DNA of 58,872 nt. Origin: Clostridiaceae bacterium. Lineage in GTDB: Bacteria > Bacillota > Clostridia > Peptostreptococcales > Peptostreptococcaceae. Location of the stretch: positions 1 to 58,872 of the forward strand of contig CABIVQ010000014.1 of the NCBI GenBank assembly GCA_902362365.1, in the 5' to 3' direction. The notes under the pieces are model-generated. The model saw nothing but the letters and a program-made list of their open reading frames with translations. It searched no databases and was not told the DNA's origin. The position numbers and the translations under genes are program-made. Positions 23,179 to 28,115 of this stretch are shown here, piece after piece (the stretch's first letter is position 1; every line of letters begins with the position of its first letter).

Positions 23179-24036
23179 TTACTTTGATAAAATATGTCTA
23201 TATATTTCTTCATCACTATCTTTGTAAACATTAAAAACTACCTTTAATTCTTTTTCTGGATTATCTTCCATCCATTTTTTTACGGTTTTAACTGCTATTT
23301 TAGCAGCATCCTCCTTTGGATAACCAAACACGCCTGTTGATATACAGCAGAAAACTATATTTTTTATATTATCTATATCCCTTACTATATTGAGGCATGA
23401 ATTATAACAAGATGATAATTGTTTTTCTTGCTCCTTAGTTGGATCTAATGAAGATACAATAGGGCCTACTGTATGGATAACATATTTAGATGGTAAACAA
23501 TAAGCTCTAGTTATTTTTGCAGAGCCGGTGTATTCTAAATGATTTTGTTTTTCTATTATAATATTGCAATCTTTTCTTAATCTTGGTCCTGCTGCTGAAT
23601 GTATTGCATTATCTATACACATGTGAAGTGGCTGCATGCACCCCAGCAATCTACTATTAGCTGCATTAACTATTACATCTGATTTTATAGTAGTTATATC
23701 TCCATTGAATATGGATATATCTTTTTCTACTTCTGGTATATCATCTACACTTATAGTATTTTTTTCTTTGCATTCTGTTATTAATAATCGTTCTAGTAAT
23801 TCAAGATTTACAGGATCAATTTCTTTTGGAGGATATGCATTTAGAATTCCACGAAGCATATTTCTTCGTGTATCGTAAGTATCTGGTAAATTTTTAGTAT
23901 TCCAAATCCCTTCCTTAGAAAAATAGTCAATTAATACTCTAACTGCTCTGTATTTTTCTGATTTTGACATAGGTTTTACATCTTTATTAAATACTTCAAA
24001 TAAGTCTATATCGTTAGCATAATCTACCCAATTCAT
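23179..24036 (-). CDS. Macrodomain ADP-ribose hydrolase (Zn-macro type)
   Basis: Residues about 110-285 form a macro domain: ITTIKSDVIVNAANSRLLG and GVFGYPKEDAA are the ADP-ribose-binding loops. Between them GCMQPLHMCIDNAIH carries the Cys/His/Cys cluster of the zinc-containing macrodomains found in staphylococci and streptococci. The first 100 residues are the helical N-terminal extension typical of those proteins. Those relatives remove ADP-ribose from proteins and are often linked to SirTM and lipoate genes; no such partner is here. The ATG at 24042 abuts GGAGG directly, so the ATG at 24036 (6-base spacing) is chosen. Confidence 0.88.
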   Translation of the reverse strand: MNWVDYANDIDLFEVFNKDVKPMSKSEKYRAVRVLIDYFSKEGIWNTKNLPDTYDTRRNMLRGILNAYPPKEIDPVNLELLERLLITECKEKNTISVDDIPEVEKDISIFNGDITTIKSDVIVNAANSRLLGCMQPLHMCIDNAIHSAAGPRLRKDCNIIIEKQNHLEYTGSAKITRAYCLPSKYVIHTVGPIVSSLDPTKEQEKQLSSCYNSCLNIVRDIDNIKNIVFCCISTGVFGYPKEDAAKIAVKTVKKWMEDNPEKELKVVFNVYKDSDEEIYRHILSK

Positions 24037-24591: not shown

Positions 24592-25425
24592 TTATAGTTT
24601 TTGTCTTCTACTAGATGATTGTCGAAATAATTCAATTAGTTCATTACTATCTTCACTTTCTATAGATTTCTTTATTTTATTTAATTCAATTGTAAAATCA
24701 TCTATTGATTTTAATAGATTTTTCTTATTCCCAATAAAAAGTTCACACCATAACTCATCATTAATATTTGCTATCCTTGTTAGCTCTCTATAACTATCCC
24801 CTATGAAATCTCCTGTTGCTCTATTATTTTCATCACTATTTATTAATGCAACAGCTAATGCATGTGGTAATTGAGATGTATAAGAAATTATTTCATCATG
24901 AAAATCTGCACTTACTTTTCTTATTTTACTAAATCCTATTGAATATATTATACTTTCTAATAATTCTATATTTTCTACTTTATTAAATTCAGAATTAATT
25001 AATATATAATTAGCTCCATTGAATACTTCGTTACTTGCAAAATCTAAGCCTTTTTTTTCCCTACCTGCCATCGGATGACCAAATATAAAATCTACACTAT
25101 TAGGTAATATTTCTAATATCTCTTTTATAAACAATCCCTTAATTCCAGTGGTATCAGTTATAACGGCTCCTTTTTTAAAATTTAATTTATTCTCCAAAAT
25201 AAATTTTTTTATCAGTTTAGGGTAAATTGAAATTATCACTAAATCTGCTTCTTTTAATATCTCATTTCCTTTGGTGCAGCCATCTTTTATTATTCCTATA
25301 CTTTTCGCCTTTGTTATTGTACTTTCATCTATATCTATCCCATATACTTCATCATATCCAGCTTTTTTAAGGGCCATTGCAAAAGACCCTCCAATTACAC
25401 CTAATCCTACTATAGCTATTTTCAT
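24592..25425 (-). CDS. tyrA: Prephenate dehydrogenase
   Basis: NAD(P)-dependent oxidative decarboxylation of prephenate to 4-hydroxyphenylpyruvate, the tyrosine branch. Rossmann motif GLGVIGGSFA (7-16), TDTTGIKG, GHPMAGREKKG around residue 117, and the catalytic-domain stretch SQLPHALA with His. No ACT domain at the end (277 residues). The start overlaps the aroF stop as ATGA, so the two are coupled. Last gene of the aromatic operon. Confidence 0.94.
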   Translation of the reverse strand: MKIAIVGLGVIGGSFAMALKKAGYDEVYGIDIDESTITKAKSIGIIKDGCTKGNEILKEADLVIISIYPKLIKKFILENKLNFKKGAVITDTTGIKGLFIKEILEILPNSVDFIFGHPMAGREKKGLDFASNEVFNGANYILINSEFNKVENIELLESIIYSIGFSKIRKVSADFHDEIISYTSQLPHALAVALINSDENNRATGDFIGDSYRELTRIANINDELWCELFIGNKKNLLKSIDDFTIELNKIKKSIESEDSNELIELFRQSSSRRQKL

Positions 25426-26435
25426 ATTACTTTGCCTTCTATTTCTGCCAATACCCTTGCTTTTTCCATTAAAAATCTAAATTTATTTGGCTTTATTGAT
25501 TGCTGTCCATCACATAATGCTTTTTGTGGGTTATTGTGTACCTCTATAATAAGTCCATCGCACCCAGAAAGTATTGCTGCTTTAGACATAGGTTCTACCA
25601 ATCTCCAGTCTCCCGAAGCATGACTTGGGTCAACTATAACAGGTAAATGAGATAACCTCTTTACTATTGGTATCGCACTTAAATCTAATGTATTTCTTGT
25701 ATATCTCTCAAATGTTCTGATTCCTCTTTCACATAGAATTACATTTTCATTCCCTTCTGCCATTATATACTCCGCACTCATCAGCCATTCCTCTATAGTC
25801 GCCGATAAGCCTCTCTTTAATAGTATTGGTTTATTAGTTCTTCCCACTTGTTTTAATAAATCAAAGTTTTGCATATTTCTTGCCCCAATTTGTATTACAT
25901 CTACATCTTCCACAAATTTATCTATATAATCGGTTGACATAAGCTCAGTCACTATAGGTAAACCAGTTTCTTGTTTTGCTAACTTCAATAGGTTTAACCC
26001 TTCCATCTCCATGCCTTGGAAACTATAAGGTGATGTTCTAGGTTTGAAAGCCCCACCTCTTAAAAAGTTTGCTCCTGATTCTTTTACACTTTTTGCAATC
26101 TCAACTATTTGTTCTTCAGACTCTACTGAACACGGACCTGCTATTATTCCTAAATTAGATCCACCAATCTTACTTCCTAATACATCGATAACAGTATCTT
26201 CTGTTTTAAATAATCTATTTGCTTTTTTAAATGGTTCTTGTACCTTTAATACCTTTTCAACATATCTAAATGATAAAATTTCATCTGAATCTATAATCGT
26301 AGTATCTCCTATCACGCCTACTATACATTTTGAATTTCCCTCTGTTATATTAGTTTTTACACCTTTACTTTCTATATGATCAACTAATTCTCTTACTTCA
26401 TCCTGAGTGTATCCTGTATTCAAAACAATAACCAC
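25422..26435 (-). CDS. aroF: 3-deoxy-7-phosphoheptulonate (DAHP) synthase
   Basis: First enzyme of the shikimate pathway (phosphoenolpyruvate plus erythrose-4-phosphate). It is the type I-beta form: a short N-terminal ferredoxin-like regulatory domain (1-70) precedes the barrel, with GPCSVES, GGAFKPRTSPYSFQG, LKRG and DPSHASG motifs. The N-terminal domain in this class mediates feedback by Tyr or Phe (family knowledge). Translation begins at GTG after GGGAGGGAA. It is 28 bases after pheA and overlaps tyrA by 4 bases. Confidence 0.95.
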   Translation of the reverse strand: MVIVLNTGYTQDEVRELVDHIESKGVKTNITEGNSKCIVGVIGDTTIIDSDEILSFRYVEKVLKVQEPFKKANRLFKTEDTVIDVLGSKIGGSNLGIIAGPCSVESEEQIVEIAKSVKESGANFLRGGAFKPRTSPYSFQGMEMEGLNLLKLAKQETGLPIVTELMSTDYIDKFVEDVDVIQIGARNMQNFDLLKQVGRTNKPILLKRGLSATIEEWLMSAEYIMAEGNENVILCERGIRTFERYTRNTLDLSAIPIVKRLSHLPVIVDPSHASGDWRLVEPMSKAAILSGCDGLIIEVHNNPQKALCDGQQSIKPNKFRFLMEKARVLAEIEGKVI

Positions 26436-26463: not shown

Positions 26464-27597
26464 TTAAATATTACCTTTTTTATAGCTCCCTAAAAATTTA
26501 AAATATTTACTTTCGTTTTCTATATTAGCTATAGCTCTTTTTATTTTTTCCTCTTTAATACTTCCCTCAAAATCTACATAAAACAGGTATTGCCATGGTA
26601 TATGTTTGTTTGGTCTAGACTCTATCTTCGTTAAGTTTATATTATAATCTGCAAAATACTTTAATAGTCTATATAGTTCACCTGACTCATGTTCCGTAGA
26701 AAATATTATACTTGACTTATCACAAGCATTTCCTACTTCAAAATTCCTACCTATTATCACAAACTTAGTATAATTATCCTTGTTATCATTTATATTACTA
26801 TCTATAATATCTAAGTTATAAATCTTAGCTGCTCTTTCTGATGCTATTGCAGCCTTTGTTTTGTCATTTAAATCTGAAACTAATTTTGCAGATATAGCTG
26901 TGTTTAAATAAGGTATCAACTTTATATTCTCATACCTTTTTAGGCTCTCTGCACTTTGCTCAAATCCTTGAGGATGAGAGTAAACTTCTTGTATATCATT
27001 TATTGTTGCTCCTTTTACACCTATTAGATGTTGATTTATCTTTATACATTCTTCACCTACTATATAAAAATCATATATCTTTAATAAATCATATACTTTA
27101 CTTATTCCACCTGTTGATGAATTCTCTATAGGAGCAATAGCATAATCAATCTCTTCATTTTTTAAAGCTATAAACAACTCTTCAAACGTTTCATAATTTT
27201 TAGTATTTTTTATACTAGAAAAATGTTTATGCATCGCCTCTTCACTAAAAGATCCAATAACGCCTTGATACCCTACTTTTAAATTTTCTTTTGGATATTT
27301 TATTACTTTTTCACTATCATAATCACTATTTATTTCTTTACTCTGAATTAATCTGCTTAAATTCATTAAGTTCATATAATAACTTCTCAGAAATGATTCA
27401 TACTCTTTATTTTTTAGATAAGATATATTCTTAGCTATAACTAATTCTTCTCTCTCACTTTGATATATTTGCATATTATTATTTTTCTTATAATCAGATA
27501 TTTTTTTAGATAAATTCATCCTATTCTCAAATAGTAATGTCATTTCCTTATCTATATTGTCAATTTCAGATCTATAGTTCTCTAGTAAATCCATCAC
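26464..27597 (-). CDS. pheA: Bifunctional chorismate mutase / prephenate dehydratase
   Basis: Makes phenylpyruvate from chorismate. Chorismate mutase domain (about 1-90; RSEIDNIDKEMTLLFENRM), prephenate dehydratase domain (about 108-290; GYQGVIGSFSEEA, IENSSTGGISKVYDLL, DNYTKFVIIGR), and C-terminal ACT domain (about 297-377) with ESRP, the phenylalanine-binding signature. Start is GTG at 27597 or the next codon ATG at 27594; both suit the GAAAGGA upstream. First enzyme gene of the operon, about 135 bases downstream of the attenuator terminator, so it is likely controlled by both attenuation and allosteric Phe. Confidence 0.96.
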   Translation of the reverse strand: MMDLLENYRSEIDNIDKEMTLLFENRMNLSKKISDYKKNNNMQIYQSEREELVIAKNISYLKNKEYESFLRSYYMNLMNLSRLIQSKEINSDYDSEKVIKYPKENLKVGYQGVIGSFSEEAMHKHFSSIKNTKNYETFEELFIALKNEEIDYAIAPIENSSTGGISKVYDLLKIYDFYIVGEECIKINQHLIGVKGATINDIQEVYSHPQGFEQSAESLKRYENIKLIPYLNTAISAKLVSDLNDKTKAAIASERAAKIYNLDIIDSNINDNKDNYTKFVIIGRNFEVGNACDKSSIIFSTEHESGELYRLLKYFADYNINLTKIESRPNKHIPWQYLFYVDFEGSIKEEKIKRAIANIENESKYFKFLGSYKKGNI

Positions 27598-27685
27598 ATC
27601 AATCCTTTCTTATTTATTTTGAATAAAAATTCACTTCGCTCATGTCCCAATGAATGCATCCGTTACTCAAACTTAGTAGTTGGAG

Positions 27686-27718
27686 TTATAAATTATCCAC
27701 GAACCAGATAATTTATAA
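27686..27718 (-). other. Second hairpin between attenuator and pheA
   Basis: Perfect 12-bp AT-rich stem (TTATAAATTATC with 27707-27718) and a 9-base loop. There is no T tail, so it is not a terminator. It lies in a slightly GC-richer 100-base stretch whose origin I cannot assign. Confidence 0.5.
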
Positions 27719-27731
27719 TCCCTTAGAATAT

Positions 27732-27757
27732 AAAAAAAGAGCTCAAATGAGCTCTTT
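27732..27757 (-). terminator. Attenuator terminator of the pheA operon
   Basis: Minus-strand AAAGAGCTC-ATTT-GAGCTCTTT followed by TTTT, a strong intrinsic terminator. It starts 38 bases after the stop codon of the aromatic-rich leader ORF and lies well before pheA, inside the leader transcript. Confidence 0.9.
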
Positions 27758-27795
27758 CTTAATATCCCAACTAAAACTAATTTAAATGTGATATA

Positions 27796-27948
27796 TTACT
27801 TGAATGAAATAGAATACATGAACTCATTAGAAAAATTTTTATATTTATTTTTGCAGAAGAAATATCCAGCGCTAAAATAAAAGCCCCAGAAAAATAAGTT
27901 ATAAAATTTATAAAGTTTTTCTTCTAACATTCTTCTAATTTGGTTCAT
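27796..27948 (-). CDS. Aromatic-residue-rich leader peptide of the pheA operon
   Basis: Fifty-codon ORF. GGAGGG (27955-27960) lies 6 bases before the ATG, a very good ribosome site. The peptide has 10 Phe, 6 Tyr and 1 Trp; residues 13-31 read YKFYNLFFWGFYFSAGYFF, 12 aromatics in 19. It sits between a consensus promoter and an intrinsic terminator upstream of pheA-aroF-tyrA. This is the structure of a pheL/trpL-type attenuation leader: ribosome stalling at Phe/Tyr codons when charged tRNA is scarce would favour read-through. An alternative is a small functional membrane peptide, since the core is hydrophobic, but the position and pairing make regulation much more likely. Confidence 0.85.
   Translation of the reverse strand: MNQIRRMLEEKLYKFYNLFFWGFYFSAGYFFCKNKYKNFSNEFMYSISFK
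27820..27828 (-). promoter_or_regulatory. Antiterminator 5' strand within the leader ORF
   Basis: Minus-strand AATGAGTTC (leader codons 41-43) is complementary over 9 bases, with one G-U pair, to GAGCTCATT (27746-27754), the 5' arm and loop of the terminator. A ribosome stalled at codons 13-31 leaves this segment free; a ribosome at the stop codon would cover it. Confidence 0.65.
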
Positions 27949-28017
27949 CTCTATCCCTCCATAATTTTAATATATTTCAAATACTATTTTTAATTATTAC
28001 TTTCTAATATTGATATA

Positions 28018-28045
28018 ATTATAGTCCTTATATTTCCTATGTCAA
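28018..28045 (-). promoter_or_regulatory. Promoter of the pheA leader and operon
   Basis: Perfect -35 TTGACA (28040-28045) and -10 TATAAT (28018-28023) on the minus strand with a 16-base spacer. Transcription would begin near 28011, about 50 bases before the leader's ribosome site. Confidence 0.85.
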
Positions 28046-28115
28046 TATTAACGATTTATTTATATGTATTATTATTTTTTTATTTCTGTATACATAATTC
28101 TTCCTGTGAAAACAT

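Follow-up and report, generated by a model that had tools for sequence, protein, structure and literature searches.

What controls the aromatic amino acid operon pheA–aroF–tyrA of a clostridium, a member of the Firmicutes, which are textbook users of T-boxes? We addressed this question for the operon carried by a 58,872-nucleotide (nt) stretch of DNA (contig CABIVQ010000014.1 of the Clostridiaceae bacterium assembly GCA_902362365.1), hereafter the window. On its minus strand, a promoter, a GGAGGG site, a 50-codon open reading frame (ORF), an intrinsic terminator and a 134-nt gap precede pheA, aroF and tyrA, in this order. An original prediction, made from the letters of the window, proposed that a ribosome translating the ORF as a leader peptide decides whether transcription passes the terminator. 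Our sequence comparisons make it very probable that the locus is a ribosome-mediated transcription attenuator and one of a set of homologous aromatic leaders found in three Firmicutes classes.

The leader ORF runs from 27948 to 27796 and would encode MNQIRRMLEEKLYKFYNLFFWGFYFSAGYFFCKNKYKNFSNEFMYSISFK. Phenylalanine occupies residues 15, 19, 20, 23, 25, 30, 31, 39, 43 and 49, tyrosine residues 13, 16, 24, 29, 36 and 45, and tryptophan residue 21; aromatic residues take up 17 of the 50 codons, with 12 of them between residues 13 and 31. These counts, the coordinates and the gene order all reproduced the original prediction, which had also held the aromatic density to be unusual. This is true among the 92 ATG-initiated ORFs of 30–100 codons in the window, of which the leader has the densest aromatic stretch (12 in 19 codons, the next reaching 10), but not among stop-to-stop frames taken without an ATG condition: one of these holds 13 and two hold 12 aromatics per 20 residues (plus strand, near 23683, 15659 and 33326). 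Aromatic density alone is therefore not decisive. By sequence, the locus nonetheless has what characterizes the pheL and trpL kind of attenuator, namely a leader ORF that could be translated and holds an excess of end-product codons (ORF, GGAGGG site and aromatic codons) and an intrinsic terminator between this leader and the first structural gene.

The terminator expected downstream of the leader was recovered as the sole terminator-like site between 27300 and 28300 (shuffle mean 0.1) and is unlikely to occur there by chance. Promoter-like sites number nine in the same interval, a total not above that of shuffled sequences (mean 10.3).

Control by a T-box, TRAP or another non-ribosomal element, with the ORF being incidental, is hard to credit. 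In a TRAP leader, some 11 [GU]AG triplets follow one another at short, even intervals; a crude count gave 15 [GT]AG triplets over 414 nt, in which regular spacing was not seen by eye. T-boxes are the usual Firmicutes device, and excerpted text of one study names them before several Clostridioides difficile amino-acid genes (PMC7438776), but in an Rfam scan of the window no family reached its gathering score, and no T-box (RF00230) appeared up to E 10 in 27550–28100. We accordingly rejected T-box control, which the original prediction had named as an outcome that would refute it. Among the other loci scanned (L014–L019), only a ZTP riboswitch in L016 reached the gathering score. A second regulatory element between the terminator and pheA was considered and rejected as not compelling, the predicted fold of the 134-nt segment being only slightly more stable than those of shuffled sequences (z −1.82). 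This gap (27598–27731, minus strand) contains a long AT-rich hairpin (ATAAATTATC...GATAATTTAT).

The window can be compared with a second locus. Using tblastn of PheA against plasmid records, and not a leader search, we found a homologous leader (MENLIGNMINANNKFYFSFFSLGFYFYSAGYFAFQKSYKNPMRYSLYYPQVLQH; L014:1294–1455; core GFYFYSAGYF) upstream of aroF–tyrA–aroA–pheA in Acetoanaerobium noterae, of the family Filifactoraceae (gene names taken from ORF order and similarity). It is preceded by the promoter TTGACA-16-TAGAAT and followed by the terminator AGGGTCTCATTGAAACTTCAATGAGGCCCT-TTTTT, so that in this one relative the architecture is kept at the cognate operon. The aromatic run, whose conservation in relatives had been named beforehand as a test that could refute the attenuator, is present in A. 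noterae and in the leader-like proteins described below. In the window, AATGAGTTC (27828–27820) can pair with GAGCTCATT (27754–27746) over 9 base pairs (bp), including one G–T, and the A. noterae sequence CAATGAGAT can likewise pair with its terminator arm over 9 bp. Both loci share AATGAG:CTCATT. Counted from the first base of the SAGYF serine codon, AATGAG starts after 45 nt in the window, where it is also the start of AATGAGTTC, and after 41 nt in A. noterae, and it is read in different frames, as N-E in the former and as M-R in the latter. The A. noterae record (NZ_CP154629.1) is a 2.63-Mb sequence deposited as a 'plasmid' that bears the aromatic operon and resembles a chromosome. A 9-nt unit, AAGAGCTTA, is repeated 8.2 times without mismatch between its attenuator and aroF (L014:1637–1710).

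The original prediction had also called for folding with a ribosome footprint. For each of 13 sampled positions of the ribosomal P site between codons 20 and 50, we folded an RNA that began 16 nt after the start of the P-site codon and ended with the terminator 5′ arm. With the terminator 3′ arm left out, the antiterminator forms with a pairing probability of 0.95–0.97 at both loci when the P site is at codons 20–35. With the P site at codon 37, the remaining antiterminator pairs reach 0.58 in the window and 0.91 in A. noterae, and at codons 39–50 the probability is 0 at both loci. The computed switch point thus lies between codons 35 and 39, and the aromatic run of the window falls on its permissive side. 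On RNA lacking the terminator 3′ arm, the computed pairing is thus that of an antiterminator which competes with the terminator and is occluded by a ribosome that has moved past the control codons. The parts, their order, a homologue from a second family with its own terminator and candidate antiterminator, and a computed switch point can all be read from the sequences.

We infer that the ribosome stalls, that the switch depends on kinetics and that Phe, Tyr and Trp are all sensed, in the following way. When charged tRNA-Phe, tRNA-Tyr or tRNA-Trp is scarce, the leading ribosome would stall in the aromatic run or core (codons 13–31), leaving AAUGAG (codons 41–42) free to pair with CUCAUU of the nascent terminator 5′ arm ahead of the synthesis of the 3′ arm; RNA polymerase would then continue into pheA. 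When charged tRNAs are plentiful, a ribosome at codon 39 or beyond would cover AAUGAG and the terminator would form.

The window leader has many relatives among small proteins. A search with its sequence alone returned five proteins (E up to 1); 28 of 30 candidates were taken with a five-row profile and 94 of 676 with a 12-row profile (E up to 10 in both cases), and all searches together gave 97 small-protein identifiers, that is, 98 sequences with the window leader. E-values of 1e-3 or better were obtained for 83 of the 94, 73 of which are not profile rows. Matches that were not rows include C. difficile (P0034, 3e-10), Intestinibacter (P0040, 2.4e-9), Trichococcus (P0071, 3e-6), Alkaliphilus (P0086, 6e-4), Cellulosilyticum (P0080) and Petromonas (P0082), whereas Pelosinus (P0028) and Anaerovirgula (P0026) are among the rows, so that their E-values with the 12-row profile are not independent. 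The nearest named homologue comes from Romboutsia hominis, another member of the Peptostreptococcaceae (P0002; 81% identity over 96% of the query), which makes Romboutsia or a near relative of it the probable source of the window. The named sources belong to the Clostridia, the Negativicutes (Pelosinus) and the Bacilli (Trichococcus), a spread which suggests that several Firmicutes branches may sense aromatic amino acids via the translating ribosome. The A. noterae leader, itself a profile row and the sole leader-profile match in its record, is the only member reached via operon homology rather than leader similarity. Scans of 22 members against Pfam and NCBIfam gave stray rows only, from a single member in each scan (best E 0.15 and 0.22, respectively), and a search of PDB sequences gave no match up to E 10.

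Beyond what had been predicted, the leader is not a mere run of codons, as a peptide core, WG[FY]3-4SAGYF, recurs in other classes. Exact SAGYF is present in 75 of the 98 sequences, SAGY[FL] in 86, and WG followed by three or four residues and SAGYF in 59; a looser core expression fits 96, the exceptions being P0022 and P0023. Anchoring the 67 members below 70% identity on this looser expression, we counted serine in 64, alanine in 67, glycine in 63, tyrosine in 67 and phenylalanine in 61 (leucine in 6), and the three positions preceding the serine are 97–99% aromatic, with F and Y interchanged. The gap from W-G to S measures three residues in 58 of 96 members and four in 19. Since both the word-based search and the anchoring expression favour SAGYF, these figures document its recurrence and do not prove its invariance. 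P0023 is similar to the A. noterae leader, except that its core is crossed by a frameshift, and P0005 has a partly duplicated core and tail; a sequencing error is possible in each.

We next asked about the tails, which otherwise diverge between family members. NE and M[RS] are the peptide readings of AAT-GAG and A-ATG-AG, respectively, and we located them by their offset from the serine codon, the AAUGAG word being deduced from peptides for every member except the window and A. noterae. At an offset of 44/45 nt, one or the other is found in 32 of 96 members, whereas 2000 shuffles gave 0.98 on average and 6 at most, and in 16 of the 56 members below 60% identity (shuffle mean 0.56, maximum 5). 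Across 40–48 nt, the signal is present in 48 of 96 members (2.94 on average and at most 9 in shuffles) and in 24 of the 56 (1.65 on average and at most 7). P0001, a peptide with 96% identity, has ANDF in place of SNEF. Some tails without this signal end in FLR, LVR or GE, which in our reading would fit CUGAG or GUGAG, and the C. difficile tails LVRP (P0034) and SGEA (P0045) could be read as one RNA in two frames.

This behaviour of the tails bears on whether the ORF simply encodes a functional small protein of 50 residues, such as a membrane peptide, whose position ahead of the operon is accidental and for which the terminator is its own 3′ end. The terminator does come after the ORF, and a hydrophobic core recurs in three classes. 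We consider this explanation very unlikely, however, as the tails vary while many of them keep a word fitting one RNA in two frames, pairing between the terminator arm and the ORF is possible at both loci, the peptide is rich in exactly the products of the operon and the spacing between WG and SAG is variable.

Several points weigh against the attenuator reading. The 9-bp leader–terminator pairing of the original prediction was reproduced, but for the window, a match as good or better arose 367 times when codons were shuffled and 274 times when dinucleotides were, out of 2000 shuffles each, and for A. noterae 98 and 105 times, respectively. We therefore rejected the pairing as evidence by itself, and the antiterminator case rests on comparison. 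That comparison is direct, at the DNA level, in A. noterae and indirect in the NE/M[RS] tails, with 48 of 96 members lacking the signal in the 40–48 nt range and tail shuffles that leave shared ancestry in. The window leader and that of A. noterae are the only two members whose genomic context is known, and rows P0025–P0028 of the 12-row profile, which gave most members, had E-values of 0.047–2.4 in the preceding search and were chosen by eye on account of their core. The footprint used in folding is assumed to reach 15 nt past the first base of the P-site codon. Finally, when the whole terminator is included, equilibrium folding gives the terminator a probability of 0.98–1.0 and the antiterminator 0 at every ribosome position and at both loci; the switch obtained on the shorter RNA must then be kinetic, acting during synthesis of the hairpin. 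The anatomy of the locus, the A. noterae homologue, the folding of the shorter RNA, the tail signal and the lack of a T-box or other Rfam match are what support the attenuator interpretation.

To gauge specificity, we considered matches outside the family. Across 292 genomes of the phylum to which the genome of L001 belongs (titled Gastranaerophilales, a group of the Cyanobacteriota), the leader profile gave two matches (E 7.5e-4 and 0.0067). One (L021) has FSAGYF inside a 110-residue open frame that lacks a leader-type aromatic run, and the other (L022) lacks FSAGYF, so that neither weak profile E-values nor SAGYF alone are specific. The profile found no match in the whole records of four further Bacillota loci and one of Fusobacteriota, namely Subdoligranulum (L015), Lachnospira eligens (L016), Natranaerobius (L018), Paenibacillus (L019) and Ilyobacter. 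Leader searches returned one match in phages (E 6) and none in plasmids, and the Anaerovirgula leader gave one match in plasmids (E 4). Among viral contigs, searches by AroF, the leader profile, two DNA patterns and the PheA profile yielded no confirmed case, and a search by the AroF profile gave six loci, none of which has a leader of the SAGYF kind. A PheA scan of genome contigs was not useful (12 loci from Gastranaerophilales, Galligastranaerophilus and an uncultured bacterium, at 30–35% identity). Ilyobacter polytropus (Fusobacteriota) has a separate, minimal leader of 17 codons, MASQNLTNWYFYYYFRN (L017:4772–4825), at its aroF–tyrA–aroA–pheA operon; the region L017:4772–4963 includes a terminator and alternative hairpins, and the aromatic run is WYFYYYF, without SAGYF.

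Why, then, is SAGYF kept? The recurrent core exceeds what codon counting needs, which suggests a role for the nascent peptide, with the caveat that word-based searching favours the core. We put forward only tentatively that WG[FY]3-4SAGYF, from within the exit tunnel or at the peptidyl-transferase centre, slows or arrests the ribosome at SAGYF and thereby amplifies a modest shortage of Tyr- or Phe-tRNA, or another signal, in place of pure codon counting. S-A-G is non-aromatic and unneeded for tRNA sensing, yet is retained in most of the 67 members below 70% identity, where the three aromatic positions before it swap F and Y; moreover, the five SAGYF codons of the window and A. noterae differ by three synonymous and no non-synonymous changes. 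The bare run of the Ilyobacter leader illustrates that pure codon counting has no need of SAG and that the core is not required in every such leader. Conversely, members were found by exact five-residue words and anchored with an expression in which A is obligatory and SAGYF almost so, which inflates apparent invariance; exact SAGYF and the full core are missing from part of the family, as counted above, and SAGYF also occurs in the unrelated L021 frame. An arrest caused by an excess of aromatic amino acid would free the antiterminator and switch the operon on, which is the wrong direction. If the peptide matters, its more likely role is therefore to amplify the pauses that starvation causes or to keep the ribosome synchronized with the polymerase.

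The SAG codons could instead be kept for the RNA, as a protector (1:2) or pause hairpin, with the peptide being irrelevant. Serine is encoded by AGC at both loci, a G+C-rich spot in a window of 28.7% G+C, and A. noterae can form ATAGC-GCAG-GCTAT across these codons. The structure predicted for the window differs and is weak, so that none is common to both loci, and third positions differ in three of the five codons; we regard this explanation as unlikely. The nascent chain may plausibly contribute to SAG retention. That the leaders are part codon counter and part arrest peptide is a possibility we hold with considerable doubt: they would form an uncatalogued Firmicutes family, with an aromatic run, WG[FY]3-4SAGYF and an AAUGAG-like word about 44 nt past the serine codon, in which the nascent chain aids the pause where a T-box would be expected.

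Features of the attenuator and the operon in the window
Feature	Coordinates	Strand	Basis or remark
Sigma-A type promoter TTGACA-16-TATAAT	28018..28045	−	12/12 consensus bases; TTGACA 28045–28040, 16-nt spacer, TATAAT 28023–28018
Shine-Dalgarno sequence GGAGGG	27955..27960	−	6 nt upstream of ATG
Leader peptide ORF, 50 codons and stop	27796..27948	−	10 Phe, 6 Tyr, 1 Trp; composition and homologues
Codons of recurrent core W-G-F-Y-F-S-A-G-Y-F	27859..27888	−	Residues 21–30; comparison with other leaders
Putative antiterminator, 5′ strand AATGAGTTC	27820..27828	−	Leader codons 41–43; pairing and comparison
Putative antiterminator, 3′ strand GAGCTCATT	27746..27754	−	Part of terminator 5′ arm and loop; pairing and comparison
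Intrinsic terminator AAGAAAGAGCTCATTTGAGCTCTTTTTTT	27732..27760	−	Terminator search and folding
pheA, bifunctional chorismate mutase/prephenate dehydratase	26464..27597	−	Predicted to be the first gene under control; listed start GTG 27597, alternatively the ATG that directly follows
aroF, DAHP synthase	25422..26435	−	Follows pheA; gene order confirmed
tyrA, prephenate dehydrogenase	24592..25425	−	Follows aroF; gene order confirmed

If a homologous aromatic leader spans the Clostridia, including C. difficile and gut commensals, the Negativicutes and the Bacilli, a control class of a central pathway would have been missed, its leaders hiding as unannotated or 'hypothetical' ORFs of about 40–60 residues. 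The recurrent core makes it testable whether such attenuators use the nascent peptide or codons alone. We found no description of this aromatic leader family in the open-licence PMC literature, a search that excluded subscription papers and does not establish absence from print; matches to the word SAGYF in that literature were unrelated, as judged by title and start of abstract.

Among known systems, pheL–pheA and trpL of Proteobacteria couple a leader ORF rich in product codons to a mutually exclusive antiterminator and terminator, the arrangement that the window would share before pheA. The window leader differs in being longer, in mixing F, Y and W, in its WG[FY]3-4SAGYF core, in having the antiterminator strand within the end of the ORF and in belonging to Bacillota; it scores 21.1 bits (E 0.47) with the Rfam Phe_leader model (RF01859), below the gathering cut-off of 55. 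The Ilyobacter leader serves the same enzymes with an aromatic leader, a terminator and alternative hairpins, but is a bare aromatic run without WG...SAGYF in another phylum. The RNA motif uORFC-13-1, upstream of Acholeplasma aroF, comprises an upstream ORF that includes one or more Phe codons and lies next to a terminator, and attenuation by the speed of Phe incorporation has been proposed (PMC8632094). Compared by description only, it resembles the window in its Phe-codon ORF and terminator upstream of aroF; it differs in being known from Acholeplasma and unknown environmental sources alone (24 representatives), and excerpts of its description do not mention a SAGYF core (PMC8632094). Also known within Firmicutes are, from excerpts of their descriptions, the His leader peptides of hisS and hisZ (PMC2965389, PMC4833913), described as replacing T-boxes (PMC2965389): they share leader-peptide attenuation with our proposal and apply it with histidine codons to other genes.
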